64,000 bases of DNA, taken from contig NZ_CP011930.1 in assembly GCF_001040945.1 (NCBI RefSeq), positions 3,281,021 to 3,345,020 on the forward strand. Direction: 5' to 3'. Positions 2,862 through 54,958 of the stretch are shown here, piece by piece (within the stretch, counting starts at the first letter, position 1; every line of letters starts with the position of its first letter). A program made the position numbers and the translations under genes. Under the pieces are notes generated by a model. The model saw nothing but the letters and a program-made list of their open reading frames with translations. It ran no database searches and was not told the origin of the DNA. The stretch comes from Herbaspirillum seropedicae. GTDB lineage: Bacteria > Pseudomonadota > Gammaproteobacteria > Burkholderiales > Burkholderiaceae_D.

Positions 2862-3778
2862 TGGAAACGCGTGCACATCACGTCCTCATCGGACTCTTCA
2901 CCATCCTGGTCGCCCTGGGCGCGCTGGGATTCTGCCTGTGGCTGACCAAGGCCGGGCAGGACCGCGATGTCGACTACTACACCGTCATCTTCAACGAAGC
3001 CGTCAGCGGCCTCTCGCGCGGCAGCCCGGTGCAGTACAGCGGCATCAAGGTGGGCGACGTGGTCGGCCTGAGCCTGGACCCGGCCGATCCGCGCAAGGTG
3101 CGTGCACGCATCCGCGTGGTGGGCCGCGCACCCATCAAGGAAGACACCGGCGCCAAGCTGGCCCTGGCGGGCATCACGGGCACCGCGCTGATCCAGCTCA
3201 CCAATGGCTCGCCGCAGAGTCCTAGGCTGGAATCCAAGGATGGCAGCGATCCCGTCATCATCGCCTCGCCCTCGCCGCTGTCGGCCTTGCTCTCCAATGG
3301 CGAAGACCTGCTGGGCAATGTCAATGAAGTGCTGATCAACGCCAAGCAATTCCTGGCCCCCGACAATGCGCGCCGCCTCAACGCCACCCTGGCCCATCTC
3401 GAAGAACTCACCAGCACCCTGGCCGCCCAGCGCAACAACGCCGGCGCCGCCATGCAGGAACTGGCCGAAGCGGCGCGCCAGGCCAACCTGGCCATGCAGA
3501 GCGCCAACCAGTTGCTGTCCACACGCGGCAATGATGCAATGAGTAACCTGCAACAAGCCATGCGCTCGCTGGCCGCCAGCAGCCAGCAAGTCGAAAGACT
3601 GATCCAGCAGAACCAGGCCGCATTGAACAATGGCGCGCAAGGCGTGGCCGAGATCGGACCGGCCATCGCCGAACTGCGCGCCACCCTGTCCTCGGTACGG
3701 GCGGTGAGCCGCAAGCTGGAAAGCAATCCCGGCGCCTATCTGCTGGGCCACGACAATGTCCAGGAATTCCAACCATGA
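2861..3778 (+). CDS. MlaD/MCE-domain periplasmic lipid-binding protein
   Basis: Membrane-anchored periplasmic subunit with one MCE domain. One N-terminal transmembrane helix (LIGLFTILVALGALGFCLWL, residues ~9-28) is followed by the MCE core (SGLSRGSPVQYSGIKVGDVV, then AGITGTALIQLTNG). After residue ~150 comes a long Ala/Gln/Asn-rich helical region, as in PqiB/YebT-like or Ttg2C proteins that form tunnels across the periplasm. It lies between the ATPase and the auxiliary lipoprotein, overlapping both by a few bases. 305 residues is longer than E. coli MlaD (~183), matching the form that works with an auxiliary lipoprotein. Confidence 0.9.
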   Translation: METRAHHVLIGLFTILVALGALGFCLWLTKAGQDRDVDYYTVIFNEAVSGLSRGSPVQYSGIKVGDVVGLSLDPADPRKVRARIRVVGRAPIKEDTGAKLALAGITGTALIQLTNGSPQSPRLESKDGSDPVIIASPSPLSALLSNGEDLLGNVNEVLINAKQFLAPDNARRLNATLAHLEELTSTLAAQRNNAGAAMQELAEAARQANLAMQSANQLLSTRGNDAMSNLQQAMRSLAASSQQVERLIQQNQAALNNGAQGVAEIGPAIAELRATLSSVRAVSRKLESNPGAYLLGHDNVQEFQP

Positions 3779-18962: not shown

Positions 18963-19039
18963 CTGCCCTTAGCTCAACTGGATAGAGCAATGGCCTTCTA
19001 AGCCATAGGTCGGGGGTTCGAGTCCCTCAGGGCAGGCCA
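18963..19039 (+). tRNA. tRNA-Arg (anticodon UCU), island attachment site
   Basis: 77 nt including CCA. Acceptor CTGCCCT pairs with AGGGCAG; the anticodon loop CTTCTAA between ATGGC and GCCAT reads UCU. From GAGCAATGG (18985) to the CCA end it is repeated at 26305-26359, marking it as the integration site of the downstream island. The tRNA itself is intact. Confidence 0.96.
18985..19039 (+). repeat. attL: tRNA-Arg 3' portion
   Basis: 55-bp left copy of the island boundary repeat, part of the functional tRNA-Arg. It differs from the right copy at one position, A instead of C in the T loop (TTCGAG against TTCGCG). Confidence 0.85.
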
Positions 19040-19133
19040 AGCTTCCTCGCATTTTTCCTTGCAGATCAGGCACTTAGCGGTTCATCAGGCGGGACGCATT
19101 CACCACGATGACCACTGTATTTTACACGCGCAC

Positions 19134-19155
19134 TGCACCAGAACTGCACCAAGCG
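19134..19155 (+). repeat. CTGCACCA double motif near the left end of the island
   Basis: CTGCACCAGAACTGCACC lies ~95 bp inside attL; the near-identical CTGCACCAAAACTGCACC is at 26234-26251, just inside the right end. Paired motifs at both ends could be integrase arm sites or part of an older, larger duplication. Confidence 0.5.
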
Positions 19156-19184
19156 CAGTAACTTGATTAGCTTGCACGATTCGG

Positions 19185-20219
19185 CTACACCCACGGCGGA
19201 ACAAAATCCTCATCCACGCTTTGGGGCGCCCGGCTTACCACGGCCACCTGGAATGCCTCTGGCGGGGATTCGCTAGCCAATGTTGTACGAACGACCTTAA
19301 GCCGTGCCTTGAGGGCTTGCCCCATCGTCGGGTGCATACTCGCAAGACGCCCCACTCGACTAGATGCGCTCGCCAAAGCTTTTACCAAATCTGCACCTCG
19401 GTCGCCCTCCAGAACTCTCCGCTCAATCGCAAATACTTGCGCACGGATGTTTTGTCGCGTCTCTTTAGGGAGTGCCACCCGCTTGTTTATCACGAGTTTC
19501 GTGGCCGTCATCCTTTTGGATCGGGTCGACACTTCGTGTTTGGTGCGCTTCGGACGCAGAGAATAACGTCCCAACATTCCGTAAATCTTTGCCACAACCA
19601 ACGACTGAACCTCTTTAGTGACATGTTGGCGCGACGAGACGATTACGTCATCCACGTACCGCGTATACGTCAGACCCATAGCTGCCAACTGCTCAACTAG
19701 TCGCGGCTCGTAGTCCCAAAAAACAAGATTCGCCATGTAGGAGCTAGTTATAGCTCCCTGCGGAATTCCATCATCTTTCACTGTTAGCGCAGTCAATAGC
19801 TCAGAGACCTCGTCCGAAAATCGGAAAAAGTCTCGCCAAATACTCACGACGTGATCCCGCCCGACGCTCGGGAAAAAATTCTGAATGTCCTCGGAAATGG
19901 AAAGATGCGCGCCTTTATGAGACTCGGCGTTTAATCGGGGACTACGCCCCTTGAGGCTCCCCTGCAAGTAAGGAGGGAATTTGACCTTCTGCAGCAGTCG
20001 CTCTTTGATCTTTCTTTGAATCTCTTTTAGCTTGGGCTTAGCATCAAATGTTTGACGGATTGAGCCATCCGCTTTTTGCTCTTGAGCTGCAATCCGGTAA
20101 AGAACCTCGGCCCTACTCGCCACCGTCAGTAGTTGATCCTTGGGAACGGCCAGCACACGTGCTAGCGCATCAAGCGTTCCAATTCTTTGGTGGGGATAAT
20201 TGGGAAACTCACTCGTCAT
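19185..20219 (-). CDS. Retron-type reverse transcriptase
   Basis: RNA-directed DNA polymerase of 344 residues, no extra domain. Motifs in order: retron-specific NAxxH (NAESH, ~97-101), DIQNFFPS (first catalytic Asp region, ~111), GIPQGAITSSYMANL (~151-165), and the catalytic YVDD (~188-191). The usual VTG of retron thumb regions appears altered (MTATKLVINKRV). The ATG at 20219 is chosen because it overlaps the stop of the upstream HTH gene; 12 more residues are possible. Operon order: 77-residue protein, HTH protein, RT. Such RTs usually work with a nearby structured RNA in phage defence; function here is inferred. Confidence 0.85.
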   Translation of the reverse strand: MTSEFPNYPHQRIGTLDALARVLAVPKDQLLTVASRAEVLYRIAAQEQKADGSIRQTFDAKPKLKEIQRKIKERLLQKVKFPPYLQGSLKGRSPRLNAESHKGAHLSISEDIQNFFPSVGRDHVVSIWRDFFRFSDEVSELLTALTVKDDGIPQGAITSSYMANLVFWDYEPRLVEQLAAMGLTYTRYVDDVIVSSRQHVTKEVQSLVVAKIYGMLGRYSLRPKRTKHEVSTRSKRMTATKLVINKRVALPKETRQNIRAQVFAIERRVLEGDRGADLVKALASASSRVGRLASMHPTMGQALKARLKVVRTTLASESPPEAFQVAVVSRAPQSVDEDFVPPWV

Positions 20220-20547
20220 GTCGCGTATTGAGCAGATTGAGAGCCGTATCCGCAAGCTGACCTGCTAGGTCTTTGTTTATTCCTGCCAGTTCACCCTCAT
20301 CTGCACCCAAGAAGAACAGTATTTCAATGGGCACACCCAAAGCGCCTGCAATTGACTTTATTGTCGACAGCGTTGGGTCTCTCTTCGAGTTCTCTAGCAT
20401 CGAGAGATAAGACACGGAGCAGTTTGCCTTCTCAGCCAAGGCGGACTGAGAAAGCCCCTGCTTTACCCTGCATAGTTGGATGGCGGAACCGAGATTCATA
20501 AAATAAAAATTTGATGGGCTTGCTGCGCCTACGGGCTGAACCTTCAC
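20209..20547 (-). CDS. XRE/Cro-type helix-turn-helix protein of the RT operon
   Basis: 112 residues if started at the GTG at 20547, 96 if started at the ATG at 20499 (MNLGSAIQLCRVKQGLSQSA). A Cro/C1-type HTH covers LCRVKQGLSQSALAEKANCS, then VSYLSMLENSKRDPTLSTI and IAGALGVPIEILFFLGADE. The GTG overlaps the TGA of the 77-residue gene and the 3' end overlaps the RT start, so all three are translationally coupled. HTH proteins accompany one known class of retrons; it may be either the regulator of this operon or the effector. Confidence 0.82.
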   Translation of the reverse strand: MKVQPVGAASPSNFYFMNLGSAIQLCRVKQGLSQSALAEKANCSVSYLSMLENSKRDPTLSTIKSIAGALGVPIEILFFLGADEGELAGINKDLAGQLADTALNLLNTRHDE

Positions 20548-20777
20548 TTAATTAGATCCTTGATGTTGCTAATCAAATTAAGCACTACAGCGATCACCTG
20601 AAGCGCACGCAAGCCAATTGACTCCAGCTGCGGGCCCTTCACTTGTGCGTCAATGCGCTCAAGTTCGCCGATCACACTATCCAGTTCAGCCACGACGCTA
20701 ACGTCGAGTTGGCCGTGATGCGCGTCTCGCAGCTTTTTCAAAGTGCGAACGCTGCTCTCAAGAGAGTTGTACTGCAT
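20544..20777 (-). CDS. Small 77-residue protein, first gene of the RT operon
   Basis: Unrecognised protein, with AAGGAG eight bases before the ATG. The N-terminal two thirds are helical and charged (MQYNSLESSVRTLKKLRDAH, then VVAELDSVIGELERIDAQV, coiled-coil-like); the C-terminus is a short hydrophobic helix IGLRALQVIAVVLNLISNIK that could be a membrane anchor. Its stop overlaps the HTH gene start. A small membrane-active protein beside an RT would fit a toxin/effector, but nothing in the sequence proves it. Confidence 0.65.
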   Translation of the reverse strand: MQYNSLESSVRTLKKLRDAHHGQLDVSVVAELDSVIGELERIDAQVKGPQLESIGLRALQVIAVVLNLISNIKDLIK

Positions 20778-20799
20778 GATGCTGCTCCTTTTTCAATCC

Positions 20800-21087
20800 G
20801 GGCGAAATTGCCCAGTCCCGTTAAGCAAAGAGCCGGAAGGAGCCAACCCGACATAACAAGCCCATCACCAGTCGTACGTCTTAGAGCAGTCCCGATCGGA
20901 TCGTCGTTCCGGTTTCTGGCACGATCAAAGCGCGGGGGGGGAGCTCGTTACGCTGCGCCATGTGGCACGCAGCTCAGACAACATAGCCCGCTTCTGGAAG
21001 AAGGCGGTCTCGGTAAAAAGACAGTTACGCAACTCTTACTTACTGAGAAAAAAGGATCTCTGAGAACACCTGAGCGATAACACTCAG
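20800..21087 (-). ncRNA. Candidate structured leader RNA of the RT operon (possible msr-msd)
   Basis: Non-coding stretch directly upstream of the RT operon with at least five stem-loops in under 300 bases: 21070-21087 (CTGAG/CTCAG), 20988-21007 (CTTCT/AGAAG core), 20952-20973 (GCTGCG/CGCAGC), 20899-20926 (GATCGT/ACGATC) and 20800-20813 (GGGC/GCCC). Retrons carry their template RNA in this position. I could not find the long a1/a2 end pairing expected of msr-msd, so the RNA's identity and its ends are uncertain. Confidence 0.35.
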
Positions 21088-21096
21088 CCGATACGT

Positions 21097-21125
21097 AGTA
21101 GACCATGTATTTCACCAACAGTCAA
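21097..21125 (-). promoter_or_regulatory. Possible sigma-70 promoter of the RT operon
   Basis: On the minus strand TTGACT (21125-21120) and TCTACT (21102-21097) are 17 bases apart. The -35 box is good and the -10 box poor. It would start transcription just before the stem-loop cluster. Confidence 0.4.
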
Positions 21126-21130
21126 ATAAA

Positions 21131-21146
21131 TTTACTGACAGTGAAA
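21131..21146. promoter_or_regulatory. Small palindrome, possible operator for the HTH protein
   Basis: TTTACTGACAGTGAAA, a near-palindrome centred on ACTGACAGT, lies a few bases upstream of the candidate -35 box, where a Cro/C1-type regulator could bind. Confidence 0.3.
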
Positions 21147-21546
21147 TTTGGAAGTAGTTATCGGCAGCTATGCCTGTCGCGATGGGTCGTGCCCGCCGAA
21201 ACCCGAGGCTAAAATTTATCCCGATTATTTGCGAGCACAACGGCGCTACCTCGCGGCCATGTTGCCCCCTGCCCCCCCAACATAATCTCTCACCGCGCTT
21301 TGGACCACCTCAGATAGGCAGAACCATCCACAGAAGCCCCCTATCTGGAGAAAGTGGCACATCTCAGTATGACCTCGATAATCATGGTCAACGCACTGGA
21401 AATTAAACGACCGTTTCATTACCAGCCGCAACCCCGCCCAGAAGCGGTAATAAAGCCCTTGTAAACGCATTGATTACCAGACCGGCCAAAAGCTCAATCC
21501 GTACGAGCTTCATCTTATGTTGGATGTGTTCTTGCTTCACGGGCGG
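21147..21546. other. Intergenic part of the island without recognised genes
   Basis: About 400 bases between the RT promoter region and the antirepressor remnant. I see no convincing reading frame or RNA gene in it; a homopolymer-rich patch (CCCCCTGCCCCCCC) lies near 21265. Confidence 0.5.
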
Positions 21547-22165
21547 CTAGCATCTGCTGCTGCGTCTCATACCCAACTGTGACTTGGCAGCGGCCCGGAT
21601 GGTCAGCGCGCCGCATCCATCGGCAATGCGGTTGAAGCCTTCCAACTTCGCGGCTTGCTCCTCCACCACAGCCTGCAAGGCCAGTTTCTCCTTCTCGGCA
21701 TCCTTCGCCAGTTGGATCAGTTCCATGCGGGACAGCTCGGCGGGTACCGGCGCGGCCTTGGCCTTGGGCTCGCACTCGATGAAGTACAGGCGGGCCTCCT
21801 TGCCCTTGTCGTTACGCTCCACCATCGCCAGTTCCTTCGCCATGTCGAGGGACAGGTGGTACTCGATGCTGGGACGGCCTCCCGAGGTTTTCCCCAGTTT
21901 CGGGGAGAACTCCAGAACGTAGTCCACGCCCTCTGCGAAAGCGTACTTTCGGACGCGGTCCTTGATCAAAGTCGAGAAGTCCTTACTCGCCTGCAAGAAT
22001 GCATGCAGGTCGCGGGCATTGACGGTCTGGACAAGAGAGAGCGGTTGATGTGGGTCGGGTTGATGGCGATCAGTAGAGGTAGCCAGCGCACCCGCCTTGC
22101 CCTGCTCCGCAAGGCCACGATGCAGTCGTCGCAGCGGGCGATTGATGCGCCGCGCCCTGCTCTAT
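21547..22165 (-). pseudogene. Phage antirepressor (AntA/AntB type) remnant
   Basis: The readable part (TTG at 21996 to 21547) encodes an AntA/AntB domain: LIKDRVRKYAFAEGVDYVL, then GGRPSIEYHLSLDMAKELAM, and a beginning of a KilAC domain (ADGCGALTIRAAAK) that breaks off into unrelated residues. Upstream, the same frame continues with homologous text (VQTVNARDLHAFLQASKDFS) to a stop near 22165 but has no ATG or GTG. Both ends therefore look lost; a decayed prophage gene is the likeliest reading. Confidence 0.7.
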
Positions 22166-22280
22166 CTGTTGATTGCTTACACGCTGCTCGCGGACGTGGT
22201 GATTGCCTCGTACCTCGCCAGCGTTGCCATGCACAAGCACCTCCCGTCCTGCGCCTGGACGAAGCCTACCCATTAACACG

Positions 22281-22300
22281 ACGGACGGTTTTTCGTCCGT
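22281..22300 (+). promoter_or_regulatory. Hairpin just upstream of the Rha-like gene
   Basis: Perfect 7-bp inverted repeat ACGGACG/CGTCCGT around GTTTTT, ending 16 bases before the ATG. It could be an operator, or could hide the ribosome binding site in the mRNA. Confidence 0.4.
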
Positions 22301-22316
22301 CCTCCAAGGACACCTA

Positions 22317-22868
22317 ATGAACGTACCTACTCTGATCGTAGCAGGCCCGACCATGACTACCGTTGAAATCGCCATGCTCACCGGTAAGCGGCACAAGCAT
22401 GTGCTCTCTGACACCCGCAAGATGCTGGAGGAACTGCACGGCGCAAGCAATCTCCTCAAATTTGAGGCCACCTACCGCAATGAGCAGAACAAGGAGCAGC
22501 CTGCCTTCGCCCTGCCGTACCGTGAAACCATGATCCTCGTGTCGGGCTATAAGCTGGCCCTGCGTGCGAAGATCGTTGACCGCTGGCAAGAGCTGGAACA
22601 GCAGAGGGCGCAGCCGCTACCGCAACTCAATGACCCGGCGTTTCTCCGCTCCACGCTGCTGACCTACACCGAGAAGGTTCTGGAGCTGGAAGCCACCGTC
22701 GCAGAGCAGGCACCGAAGGTGGAGGGCTTCGAGTGCATCGCCAACAGCAGCGGGGCTATGACCATCCGGGCTGCTGCCAAGGCGGCGCAGATGAAGGAGA
22801 TGTACTTCAGGGCGATGCTGATGGAAATCGGCTGGACGTTCAAGCAAGGCAAGAAGGTGCATGTGTAG
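22317..22868 (+). CDS. Rha-family phage regulatory protein with C-terminal KilAC part
   Basis: 183 residues. The N-terminal ~95 residues match phage Rha regulators: TVEIAMLTGKRHKHVLSDTR with KMLEEL, then ATYRNEQNKEQPAFALPYRE and the MILVSGYKLALRAKIVDRW segment. A coiled linker (EKVLELEATVAEQAPKVEGF) leads to a shortened KilAC/ANT domain (NSSGAMTIRAAAKAAQ to GWTFKQGKKVHV). The ATG at 22317 follows CCAAGGA. Rha interferes with infection of strains lacking IHF in the lambdoid phages where it was described; here it is a prophage-derived island gene that looks intact. Confidence 0.8.
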   Translation: MNVPTLIVAGPTMTTVEIAMLTGKRHKHVLSDTRKMLEELHGASNLLKFEATYRNEQNKEQPAFALPYRETMILVSGYKLALRAKIVDRWQELEQQRAQPLPQLNDPAFLRSTLLTYTEKVLELEATVAEQAPKVEGFECIANSSGAMTIRAAAKAAQMKEMYFRAMLMEIGWTFKQGKKVHV

Positions 22869-23142
22869 GCGGCAAACCTGTTGCACAGCTACTGCGCGTT
22901 GAGATGACAAGCTGCGTGACGGAGCGAGAAAATTCCCAATTGATCAAAGAAAAGATTTCTTCTATTTGATATGTAGTATCCAAGTGCATTTGATTTTATG
23001 TTAATTTTCGATGGGGTAGTACATGCTTATACGTTTAATCCATTTCTCATAGGTTCGTATCGCTTGGTCGAATAGCGAACTGAGTAACTTAAGTTTTGGC
23101 GTGGGCAGGGAGGATAATTTTGTTTGCTTGAGGGGGGGCGGC
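22869..23142. other. AT-rich spacer before the DUF6119-like gene
   Basis: About 270 bases, strikingly A+T-rich against the chromosome (ATTTGATATGTAGTATCC and similar). No reading frame or RNA is recognised; it may hold the promoter of the next gene. Confidence 0.5.
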
Positions 23143-24738
23143 ATGACGAGTCTAAGAACGCCTGCGCGGTTGGGCGTTAGCATATATTTGCTTAAAGCAT
23201 CAAAGGTAGGAGCGGCCAGAGAACAGATAGACGCACTTGGCGTCGGAAGCTTTCCGCTAACTGAAACGATTCCGGAAGGGAGATTCTTTGCGCTTCCATC
23301 TGAGGCGGAACCACCAAAATGGATGGCCGCAATTTCAAATTTGTTGCCGGCAGATGCTACGCCGCAACTTGAGAGTCAATCACCCGGAGGCCTACTTTGG
23401 ATTCCTCGGAATGGGAAGACGTTCGTCTTCACCTTTGGTCATGGACACTCGAAGATCAAGGACGAGTGGGTAGAGCCAGAGTTTGGAAAGATTGTTGCCT
23501 TAGCCATCGTTCCTCAGGGGCAGGTTCGAGAGGTTAGAGCGGAGCAGGTATTTGCCAAACGCCATATTTCAAGCGAACGAGCTCCTCGCGCTTCCGCAGT
23601 TAGGGAGTTCGGTTTTGAAGCGGATCGCGACTTGGTATCAGCCGTAGAGGGGGTACCAGAACTTCTGTACAGGGGAGTGTTTGGCACAAAAGTACGCGGC
23701 GGAATGTCGATCAAGTTTGAAATCGACACAACGGCCATCTTGGCAACCTTAGATCAAATTATCGAGCGGTTTGATTCAAACGACCACCGTGTTAGATGGC
23801 CGCAAGCAAATAACTTAGTTCATGTGCGTGACGAGACAACGCTCTCCCATCTCGAAACATTGTTAGACGGTATTTTAGGTGGAAGGGACCCTCAAAGGGA
23901 GATTTCCCTCGCGGCCCCAGGTGAGCGCAGCGGGGATAAGCCTTATCCGCAGCATTTTGTCATTGGACGGATGAATGCCAATGCAGCTACATCACCATAT
24001 CTCATGTTCGCTAGTTGGCAAGGTCATGCTCGATCTAAAGGCCAACCTCCAAATCTGGAAACAGCTAAATCCACTGCTGTTCATCTTCTGGATGAAAACA
24101 AAGAAGAAATTGGCGTATGTACGATCTACTCCTGTATGGGAGCAGAGATTACTCATAACGGAATAACGTATGTTTTGTCATCGGGATCATGGTACGTGGC
24201 GGATCAAAACTTTATCGTAGGTACAAACCGAGTTTTGGGACAAATTGATCCTCCAATGTTTGCTTTACAAGCTTGGAACTCCTTGGACCACGAAGGGCCA
24301 TATAACGAAGCCGCTGCAGCTGCTGACGTAGATCTTTGGCTTTTTGATAAGGAGCTTGTTAGCTATGGTGGTGGAAGATCGCGATTTGAGTTTTGCGACA
24401 TCATGCACCTTCCGAGCAAGACCCTGTATTTCGTGAAGCACCCCGCTGGTTCCGCTGGAGTTAGTCATTTATGTGAGCAGGTGCGTCGCACCGCTGAGAC
24501 GTTTTTTGATACTGATCCGGCATATCGCCAAATATTAGAGAGTCGAATAGGTGCTCTTGGAAAAGGGTGGAACACTAGCTGGTTACGCGAAAGACCTAAG
24601 AGACACGAATGGAACCTGTGTTTGGTGCTAATGGGAAAGCAGCTTAATGAATTGCCATTCTTTGCCAAGTGCGGAATTTCACGTCTGGTCGGCGAATTGC
24701 AAAAACGTGGATTTAATCTTTCTTTTTTGGCAGTTTAG
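23143..24738 (+). CDS. DUF6119 / TIGR04141 family sporadically distributed protein
   Basis: 531 residues from the ATG at 23143, behind a purine-rich GAGGGGGGGC. Family-like text: VSIYLLKASKVGAAREQID at the N-terminus, TFVFTFGHGHSKIKDEWVEP, EFGFEADRDLVSAVEGVP near residue 170, and a hydrophobic LPFFAKCGISRLVGELQ C-terminus. The recognition is from memory of the TIGR04141 pattern, so moderately sure. The family is of unknown function and scattered on mobile islands, often near defence genes. Base composition is much lower in G+C than the chromosome. Its TAG is the last bases before the IS element region. Confidence 0.7.
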   Translation: MTSLRTPARLGVSIYLLKASKVGAAREQIDALGVGSFPLTETIPEGRFFALPSEAEPPKWMAAISNLLPADATPQLESQSPGGLLWIPRNGKTFVFTFGHGHSKIKDEWVEPEFGKIVALAIVPQGQVREVRAEQVFAKRHISSERAPRASAVREFGFEADRDLVSAVEGVPELLYRGVFGTKVRGGMSIKFEIDTTAILATLDQIIERFDSNDHRVRWPQANNLVHVRDETTLSHLETLLDGILGGRDPQREISLAAPGERSGDKPYPQHFVIGRMNANAATSPYLMFASWQGHARSKGQPPNLETAKSTAVHLLDENKEEIGVCTIYSCMGAEITHNGITYVLSSGSWYVADQNFIVGTNRVLGQIDPPMFALQAWNSLDHEGPYNEAAAAADVDLWLFDKELVSYGGGRSRFEFCDIMHLPSKTLYFVKHPAGSAGVSHLCEQVRRTAETFFDTDPAYRQILESRIGALGKGWNTSWLRERPKRHEWNLCLVLMGKQLNELPFFAKCGISRLVGELQKRGFNLSFLAV

Positions 24739-25579
24739 AGGCGTGGGGGGATGTATGACTTAGCTGTTTGGTATGCTGTTTTTGGTGGGGACTCTTGCCT
24801 TTGGAGTTGCGCAGTTCGTCGCTGGGTTCGCTGGGCGCGCCATGCTTCGATCCGGTAACGAGCTTCATGCAAGGTCGAGAACAAGTGGTCATTAAGGCAT
24901 TCGTCCCTGAACCGACCATTGAAGCTTTCAATGTAGGCATTCTGCGTTGGCTTACCCGGCTGCGTAAATGCCAATTTCACGCCACGTCCAGCCGCCCAAG
25001 CATCGAGTGCCAGACTGGTAAATTCTGGACCGTGGTCAACGCGGATCATGGTCGGCAACGGCCTTTCCTGGGCGACTTTATCCAATACTCGGCCTAATCG
25101 TAATCCAGAGATCGATGTATCGACTTCAATGGCCACGCTTTCCTTGGTGAAGTCGTCGACGATATTCAGGCAGCGGATGCGACGTCCGTCGGCCAGGCGA
25201 TCATGAACGAAGTCCATCGACCAGGCGTAGTTGGCCTGTTCCGGCAGCAGCAGTGGTAACCGTTCGGTCATTCCGATACGCTTTCGGAGGCGCCGCCGTA
25301 CGCTCAAGCCAGCTTTGAAATACAGCCGATAGACCCGCTTCACATTGACCATCCAGCCCTCCGCAGCAGCAGAACATGAATGCGCCGATAGCCAAAGCGT
25401 CGGCGCTGGCCAGCCAGTGTAGTAATTCGCTCAGTCAGCGCCGCATTGTTATCGCCCCTGGCTTGGTAGCGAAGCACTGAGGTCGATATGTTCATCAGCC
25501 CACAACAGCGGCGTTCAGACAGCTGCCAGTTCGCTTTCAAAACAGCAACCGCTTCGCGCTTTTGCTGTGGGCTCACCAC
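24735..25579 (-). pseudogene. IS3-family transposase OrfB, frameshifted
   Basis: rve integrase-type transposase catalytic subunit. The first part (GTG at 25579; QKREAVAVLKANWQLSERRC to RRFGYRRIHVLLLRRAGWSM) ends at 25340; the rest continues in another frame from 25352 (VNVKRVYRLYFKAGLSVRRR). In the second part the catalytic D,D,E are visible: WSMDFVHDRL, RVDHGPEF and NAYIESFNGRFRDECL. A one-base deletion near 25355-25375 would explain the break. The C-terminus after EAWRAQ lacks the usual RPHSSLG-like text. Confidence 0.82.
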
Positions 25580-25836
25580 TTTCGGGAGACGACGTCTTTC
25601 AGAGCTGCATTGTCGAGCAACGCATCCGCCAGTAAACGCTTGAGCTTGCTGTTCTCGTTTTCCAGCGCTTTGAGCCGCTTGGCCTCTGACACGTCCATTC
25701 CACCGTACTTGGCCTTCCACTTGTAGTACGAAGCATCCGAGAAACCAAGCTTGCGGCACAGCTCAACGACCGGCAAACCTGAATCGGCTTCTTTCAGAAA
25801 CCCGATGATCTGCTCTTCAGTAAAGCGTTTCTTCAT
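25573..25836 (-). CDS. IS3-family transposase OrfA
   Basis: 87-residue helix-turn-helix subunit: MKKRFTEEQIIGFLKEADSG, then VVELCRKLGFSDASYYKWKA and the leucine-zipper-like ALENENSKLKRLLADALLDN. AAGGAG precedes the ATG. It overlaps the orfB start by 7 bases, as usual for IS3 elements that make an OrfAB fusion by -1 frameshifting. Confidence 0.9.
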   Translation of the reverse strand: MKKRFTEEQIIGFLKEADSGLPVVELCRKLGFSDASYYKWKAKYGGMDVSEAKRLKALENENSKLKRLLADALLDNAALKDVVSRKW

Positions 25837-25875
25837 GATCCAACTCCTTTCAGAATTGGATTCTACTCACTCTTG

Positions 25876-25898
25876 TTGCTAATCTTGGGGGCAGGTCA
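25876..25898 (-). repeat. IS terminal inverted repeat (orfA side)
   Basis: Minus-strand TGACCTGCCCCCAAGATTAG begins at 25898 and marks the junction with the integrase fragment. Confidence 0.75.
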
Positions 25899-26200
25899 GT
25901 AAGGGTATGCACCCGGTAGTCGCCGAGGGCTCCATACAGGTGCTGCGAGCGGGATACGTCGGCCTTGTGGGAAGCCTTGGAGACGGACACCTCTTCGAGG
26001 TATCTCTTCAGGATTTCTCGGACTGTCATAGTCTGCCCCGAGGTAGAACCCACGAACTGCTGCCGGGCCATCTGGGACTCAACCTCGCGGCCCCATGCTT
26101 GGTCTTCGGCTTTGATAGTGAATGTTCTGCTCTGAGTTGGGAACCCCTCAATGCGGACCTGGCAACGCCAGTTGCTCCCGTTTTTGTAGATAGACACCAT
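25899..26200 (-). pseudogene. Tyrosine recombinase (phage integrase), 5' fragment cut by the IS
   Basis: About 100 N-terminal residues remain: MVSIYKNGSNWRCQVRIEGF, then TIKAEDQAWGREVESQMARQ and TVREILKRYLEEVSVSKASH, matching the arm-binding and core-binding N-terminus of phage-type integrases. At 25899 the sequence runs into the IS end; the catalytic R-H-R-Y domain is absent. Next to the right attachment copy and reading away from it, this was evidently the integrase of the island. Confidence 0.85.
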
Positions 26201-26233
26201 GCGACCCTCTTTCGGTCGCGTCCAATAAAGTCG

Positions 26234-26251
26234 CTGCACCAAAACTGCACC
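26234..26251 (+). repeat. CTGCACCA double motif near the right end of the island
   Basis: CTGCACCAAAACTGCACC, a near copy of the motif at 19134-19155, directly upstream of the integrase start. Confidence 0.5.
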
Positions 26252-26258
26252 GAACCCC

Positions 26259-26359
26259 GCTCAACTGGATACAGCGCCGCGTCCCGTAAGGGATGCAAGC
26301 CAACGAGCAATGGCCTTCTAAGCCATAGGTCGGGGGTTCGCGTCCCTCAGGGCAGGCCA
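26259..26359 (+). repeat. attR: interrupted tRNA-Arg copy
   Basis: The 55 bp at 26305-26359 match the tRNA-Arg 3' part except one base (C for A in the T loop). Further upstream, GCTCAACTGGATA at 26259-26271 matches the D arm of the tRNA, but 33 unrelated bases separate the two blocks. The result is a pseudo-tRNA missing its acceptor 5' strand. Confidence 0.85.
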
Positions 26360-54323: not shown

Positions 54324-54408
54324 GCCCACGTGGCGGAATTGGTAGACGCGCATGGTTCAGGTCCATGTGCCGCGAGGTGTGGGGGTTCGAGTCCCTCCGT
54401 GGGCACCA
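54324..54408 (+). tRNA. tRNA-Leu (anticodon CAG), copy 1
   Basis: 85-nt class II tRNA with CCA. Acceptor GCCCACG/CGTGGGC; anticodon loop TTCAGGT between CATGG and CCATG reads CAG; a short variable arm precedes GGGGGTTCGAGTCCCTC. Confidence 0.96.
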
Positions 54409-54873: not shown

Positions 54874-54958
54874 GCCCACGTGGCGGAATTGGTAGACGCG
54901 CATGGTTCAGGTCCATGTGCCGCGAGGTGTGGGGGTTCGAGTCCCTCCGTGGGCACCA
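54874..54958 (+). tRNA. tRNA-Leu (anticodon CAG), copy 2
   Basis: Identical over all 85 bases to copy 1 at 54324, 550 bp downstream, with its own promoter and terminator. Confidence 0.96.

Follow-up and report, generated by a model that had tools for sequence, protein, structure and literature searches.

A type VI retron operon of Herbaspirillum seropedicae and a pair of matching words in its predicted leader RNA

Genes, relatives and family of the operon

Retrons are bacterial, presumed anti-phage systems that make DNA from their own RNA. In the window (the whole stretch of 64,000 nucleotides of H. seropedicae DNA that was analysed), three minus-strand genes lie together.

20544..20777, (-): small protein (SP), 77 aa, candidate effector (PADLOC SP_VI 1.8e-31; alignment of 31)
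20209..20499, (-): HTH protein, 96 aa, probable autoregulator (PADLOC HTH_VI 1e-27; Pfam HTH_3)
19185..20219, (-): reverse transcriptase (RT), 344 aa (PADLOC RT_VI 2.3e-70; Pfam RVT_1; tree)

The three reading frames and their families, first proposed in an earlier note on this DNA, were borne out by PADLOC and Pfam. Two gene overlaps had also been described there. The overlap of the HTH and RT genes stands (11 nt, ATGACGAGTGA), whereas the GTGA overlap of the SP and HTH genes does not; it needs a GTG start at 20547, and alignment of relatives places the HTH start at the ATG at 20499, which leaves a gap of 44 nt. Among 69 PADLOC families the RT was matched best by RT_VI (235 bits), followed by RT_V (1.9e-65, 219.5 bits). 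HTH_VI was the best of 16 families for the HTH protein, and SP_VI aligned with SP residues 1-76 over profile positions 1-77 of 77. Pfam gave no family for SP, and comparison with solved structures gave no close sequence relative (best E 0.025, mostly designed helical proteins). Mestre et al. 2020 reportedly gave the RT/HTH/small-protein set the name type VI, and this is the described class with an HTH partner to which the earlier note had alluded. All three proteins fit the type VI profiles in operon order, with no difference at the protein level; judged by sequence, the gene set is that of an ordinary type VI retron.

As previously read, the RT contains NAxxH (as NAESH) and YVDD and lacks the typical retron VTG motif, at the site of which it has TK. 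In an alignment of 32 close RTs, the N, A and H of NAxxH were invariant, as were VDD and TK. VTG was seen in more distant members, for example in Halomonas and Pseudomonas loci, and the PADLOC profile does not require it. Because each of the three proteins fits a type VI profile and close relatives show the same motif changes, the earlier suggestion of a divergent or undescribed subtype is unsupported at the protein level.

We also considered that the RT might be a group II, DGR or DRT enzyme standing by chance beside an HTH gene. Its NCBIfam matches to Drt2 (40 bits, cut-off 390) and to the group II maturase TIGR04416 (33 bits, cut-off 300) are weak and far below the cut-offs, the 25 PADLOC matches listed of 69 are all to retron RT models (one named only RT_other), and the partner genes and leader recur together; we regard this origin as highly improbable. 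The closest solved structure by sequence is the Ec86 RT (7v9u, 7v9x, 8qbk), in keeping with the retron reading of the earlier note. In retron Eco1 (Ec86), the RNA is closed by an a1/a2 stem and the partner protein is another than here. The RT phylogeny proposed earlier was built from 42 RTs without group II, DGR or DRT enzymes (midpoint root for drawing only; fragments L060 and L061 left out). Group II is disfavoured by the profile scores. In the tree, the window RT belongs to a 29-row group (support 95/82), which is joined next by L086 (best profile RT_V; 100/99) and after that by L082-L084, another RT_VI branch (96/88); the RT_VI profile therefore spans several branches rather than a single clade. 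Nine further retron RTs are found in other parts of the tree, the typed ones being II-A, III-A, XI and 'other'. Type V is thus close to the window RT both in profile score (219.5 bits on RT_V versus 235 on RT_VI) and through its tree neighbour L086. Type V has another partner protein, and L086 differs from the window in having no HTH gene between its small gene and RT and no significant R repeat (see below; p 0.5).

A profile of the 32 RTs gave 148 loci, the best 80 of which, from named genomes, were examined together with the window (81 loci). The nearest was that of Herbaspirillum huttiense (L002; RT identity 97%). An SP homologue was found at E <= 1e-6 in 41 of the 81 loci, and an HTH homologue adjoins the RT in at least 64, a lower bound because L068, counted as lacking HTH, carries an HTH-like ORF missed by the search. 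All 41 loci in which each of the three proteins had a clear hit show the order SP-HTH-RT. No HTH hit was obtained in 17 loci, 14 of them from Pseudomonas; in seven of these, all Pseudomonas, the ORFs were read, and the small gene was present with no HTH gene before the RT. SP_VI fits six of eight small proteins scanned, and the two Pseudomonas ones do not match. The expectation that homologues would share the leader and the small gene held, in that the leader is kept and the small gene is recognizable by homology in the 41 loci.

This distribution bears on another explanation, in which the HTH and small proteins form a toxin-antitoxin pair with the HTH protein as antitoxin, and the RT and RNA serve as a sensor or second antitoxin. 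Consistent with such a pair are the constant small protein-HTH order in the 41 complete loci, an operator near the promoter, and a weak NCBIfam resemblance, below cut-off, between the HTH protein and antitoxins of the HipB type. However, the 14 Pseudomonas loci have no HTH hit adjoining the RT, no HTH gene separates the small gene from the RT in the seven that were read, and PADLOC lists the HTH protein as a retron part, and we consider the pair improbable. Since the small gene persists where the HTH gene is missing, the small protein is favoured as a plausible candidate effector.

Across 195 genomes of the family, RT_VI matched at E <= 1e-30 in 39; seven of ten typed RTs matching it in those genomes belong to other retron types. 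Viral contigs gave 11 pattern matches, none a relative, and phage records gave no DNA match and 44 protein matches, with identity of at most 27% among the 15 listed. A related operon (RT identity 46%) lies on a Pseudomonas plasmid typed as conjugative, indicating that such operons move. In the window, the operon is located in a 7.3-kb tRNA-Arg element (18985-26359) whose ends are a 55-nt direct repeat of the tRNA-Arg 3' part (18985-19039 and 26305-26359, 98% identical) and which also carries AntA and Rha/ANT (antirepressor-like), DUF6119 and transposase genes. The facing AntA and Rha/ANT genes contain in their 3' parts 78-nt arms (21583-21660 and 22704-22781) that are 77% complementary, and the two proteins probably have related C-terminal domains. 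The DUF6119 protein (545 aa, 23101-24738, Pfam 5.1e-87) lies between the phage-like genes and a transposase and had no PADLOC match. Adjoining the transposase genes, a 130-aa ORF (25850-26242) without a Pfam match has a sequence reminiscent of a phage-type integrase N-terminus and may be the element's broken integrase. Elsewhere in the window, two tRNA-Leu (cag) genes of equal score lie 550 nt apart (54324-54408 and 54874-54958).

The leader RNA and its a1/a2 stem

Upstream of the SP gene, the following features were assigned.

21131..21146, (-): operator-like palindrome TTTCACTGTCAGTAAA (sequence and pattern count)
21094..21125, (-): promoter-like stretch, TTGACT (21120-21125) to -10 region (21094-21104) (leader alignment, by eye)
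20778..21092, (-): leader RNA, non-coding, predicted msr-msd (blocks conserved across 38 leaders; covariance model for the 3' part; 5' end inferred from the promoter)
21067..21091, (-): 5' hairpin, its sequence varying among relatives (leader alignment, fold)
21048..21056, (-): a1 arm (co-variation, unconstrained fold)
21033..21045, (-): CAGTAAGTAAGAG, counterpart of the GC-GAAAG block, candidate priming-guanosine site (inferred from leader alignment)
20887..20894, (-): R1, first copy of CGGGACTG (shared-word test)
20832..20872, (-): conserved core between R1 and R2, with an alternative anti-Shine-Dalgarno element at 20835-20844 (leader alignment)
20813..20820, (-): R2, second copy of CGGGACTG, 74 nt from R1 (shared-word test)
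20800..20813, (-): H3 hairpin GGGCAATTTCGCCC (mean z -2.3 over 36 leaders; fold)
20786..20794, (-): a2 arm, overlapping the SP-gene Shine-Dalgarno AGGAG at 20785-20789 (co-variation, unconstrained fold)

Of the 41 leaders with an SP hit, 38 were aligned after the near-copies L006, L018 and L019 had been dropped. They share the palindrome, the promoter-like stretch, the 5' hairpin, a block like GC-GAAAG, stem-loops, a stretch that varies and a 3' core that is strongly conserved. The palindrome, earlier noted as a possible operator, is substantiated by its pattern, which occurs in 36 of the 38 leaders (200 mononucleotide shuffles: mean 0.8, maximum 4). The claim of a structured leader fared differently by approach. 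The single-sequence fold of the window leader is no better in energy than shuffles (z -0.02; 50 of 100 shuffles fold equally well), and single-sequence folding was therefore rejected as evidence of structure, whereas comparative evidence supports the claim. No Rfam family matches the window leader. A covariance model of the 3' module, built from 26 sequences including the window, was searched against 55 sources (520 kb), as the earlier note had proposed for homologues; 27 matches at E <= 1 were obtained, each from a separate source and each sitting where the leader lies, and 28 sources had no match. In the 195 family genomes, the model had two matches, the window's own and one in G056 (probably the same genome as L008), both with the three genes alongside. 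The model and its coordinates place in close relatives an RNA that Rfam missed in the window.

We then come to the closing stem, which the earlier note had not been able to find. Following the 5' hairpin is a stretch that pairs with the 20 nt preceding the SP start codon; it forms a 9-bp stem in the unconstrained fold, and this pairing co-varies. In windows chosen after inspection of the leaders, as were those for the repeat below, cognate pairs averaged -12.9 kcal/mol compared with -9.8 for permuted pairs (z -7.5; 36 leaders, L054 and L043 dropped). Among 13 control windows along the leader, the two overlapping a1 most gave z -6.0 and -3.7, and the others ranged from -1.3 to +3.3. The signal was retained when each RT cluster (under 60% identity) contributed a single leader (z -4.0, n 15). 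By these sequence comparisons, the upstream RNA is of the retron type, with a predicted closing a1/a2 stem. The a2 site can pair with the core element as well (z -4.4, 32 leaders), and the two structures may therefore be in competition. With a2 overlapping the Shine-Dalgarno sequence, RNA folding could be linked directly to effector synthesis.

A direct repeat in the leader

R1 and R2 are a short word that occurs twice in the same orientation upstream of a2. The word is CGGGACTG in the window and ACGGGGCTTC, TGACGGCG, TGGGGACTT, CGGGGGAAG and others in relatives; it is 6-10 nt long, and its sequence differs between lineages while the two copies match. In the first set (37 leaders, L054 dropped), the mean longest shared word was 8.3, compared with 6.0 when permuted (z 9.8), and the R1-R2 distance was 72-85 nt, or 96-110 nt in the Burkholderia group L022 and L025-L027. 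A second set comprised 33 of the 40 other loci, with L039, L044 and L065 having no usable leader and the near-copies L049, L050, L077 and L080 left out; it lay outside the discovery set and had not been used to find R, yet was inspected before the test windows were set. The repeat was recovered in this set (z 8.1), with words such as GCGGCGG, TCGACTGG, TGACTGGTG, TGGAGGGA and GCGACGGAGT and distances of 61 to 101 nt in those leaders whose shared word is the repeat. Among 34 representatives with RT identity under 60%, z was 9.9. Taken singly, 18 of 37 leaders in the first set and 12 of 33 in the second reached p <= 0.05, and 29 of 37 and 28 of 33, respectively, reached p <= 0.2. The longest shared word differs from the repeat seen by eye in L025 of the first set and in L035, L053, L060, L069 and L076 of the second, all of which were kept in the tests.

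Three plasmid loci were also inspected. L103, a close relative of loci already used, has ACGGGGCTTC 75 nt apart (p 0.002), L104 has TCGACTGG 84 nt apart (p 0.06), and L105 has a TCGACTG repeat identified by eye only. No significant repeat was detected in the outgroup leaders L082, L083, L084 and L086 (p 0.19 to 0.5). L082, L083 and L084, the second RT_VI branch, do have HTH and small genes; the RTs of L082 and L083 are ~25-29% identical to the window RT where aligned, and the RT_VI profile may join two systems. Tandem arrays occur upstream of R1 in L057 (Shewanella; 3133-3323, 16 nt x 11.9) and L058 (Photobacterium; 3231-3304, 8 nt x 9.2) and may be unrelated to R1/R2. The hairpin directly after R1 had no excess stability (mean z -0.1; 36 first-set leaders, L025 left out).

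Several origins of the repeat were examined. A leftover of recent duplication is unlikely, as the 8-nt flanks are 21% and 30% identical, about the chance level (35 leaders). The HTH protein was rejected as the reader of R because the Pseudomonas loci without an HTH gene carry the repeat. An endless reading frame read from concatemers, as in DRT2, was likewise rejected because the R1-R2 distance takes all three values modulo 3 (37 leaders) and is not conserved in this respect. A third element complementary to R was sought by co-variation in tests of 32 leaders each, and none was convincing. The Burkholderia group (L022, L025-L027) and L054 were left out of both tests, L015 out of the windowed scan and L043 out of the whole-region one; in the latter, z for R was +2.9 with the whole 5' part, -0.5 with the core and -1.4 with the SP gene.

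What keeps the two copies alike may be explained in two ways. R1 and R2 may not be a jump site at all; both copies could be bound by the same protein, for example by two RT or small-protein molecules, or could alternate in pairing with a hidden partner. Direct repeats are commonly paired protein sites, and weak pairing signals were obtained (z -3.2 in the core; -3.4, -3.2 and -2.6 in coding stretches) among ~100 windows tested. However, a fixed protein site would not need words that change freely while the copies stay alike, the whole-region scores just given show no partner, and the HTH protein is not the reader. Ordinary pairing or a fixed protein site fits poorly, since no convincing co-varying partner was found and the words change freely, and we give this explanation less than even standing.

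The other explanation, for which we also claim less than an even chance, is that the identity of R1 and R2 is kept because cDNA made from one copy must anneal to the other, the reason that we favour for the match. A precedent exists in DRT2; as described in PMC11100668, matching words in its ncRNA (ACA-1 and ACA-2) allow template jumping, and disruption of their homology abolishes defence. The window leader has two matching words, within a predicted template region. Unlike DRT2, the window RT scores 40 bits against the Drt2 cut-off of 390, and the type VI words are variable (6-10 nt) and define no stop-free repeat unit, their distance varying modulo 3. By this analogy, the match might be accounted for if cDNA copied from one R annealed to its counterpart, and type VI retrons might make a programmed template jump in which cDNA from one R re-anneals to the matching other R; we put this forward tentatively. 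The product, equally conjectural, could be a concatemer of ~74-nt units or a cDNA that skips the conserved core. Within the reach of our literature search, which extended neither to the founding paper nor to the retron census, no such repeat was described in retrons; the type VI literature covered, again without the founding paper, made no mention of R1/R2 or of the a2/Shine-Dalgarno overlap, and no mechanism for type VI retrons was found.

A proposed mechanism and its meaning

Leaving the jump aside, we consider it probable that the operon is a retron whose template is the RNA closed by a1/a2 and whose effector is the small protein. Against this reading stand the fold of the leader (z -0.02), the lack of an Rfam match, the TK in place of VTG, and an SP without a Pfam family or a close relative by sequence among solved structures. 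In the retron as we picture it, the HTH protein would bind the palindrome and repress the operon. The leader RNA would fold on the a1/a2 stem and be bound by the RT, which would prime from a guanosine just 3' of a1 and copy the RNA starting on the a2 side and passing H3, R2, the core and R1 in turn. With a2 overlapping the SP ribosome site, the RNA would either serve as template or allow SP to be translated, but not both. The RT, RNA and cDNA would together hold the small protein in check, and interference by a phage would free the small protein, which would then harm the cell. If the template jump is added, cDNA from one R would anneal to the other R.

R1/R2 provides a simple and falsifiable handle on this system, namely the need for the two words to match. 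Should matching prove necessary, retrons would include enzymes able to jump from one repeat to another, and type VI might yield DNA other than the single hairpin that a retron is expected to make. If the jump is real, retrons would join DRT2 and the R regions of retroviruses in their repeat logic, and, a2 being the ribosome site of the effector, the jump would be coupled to effector synthesis.
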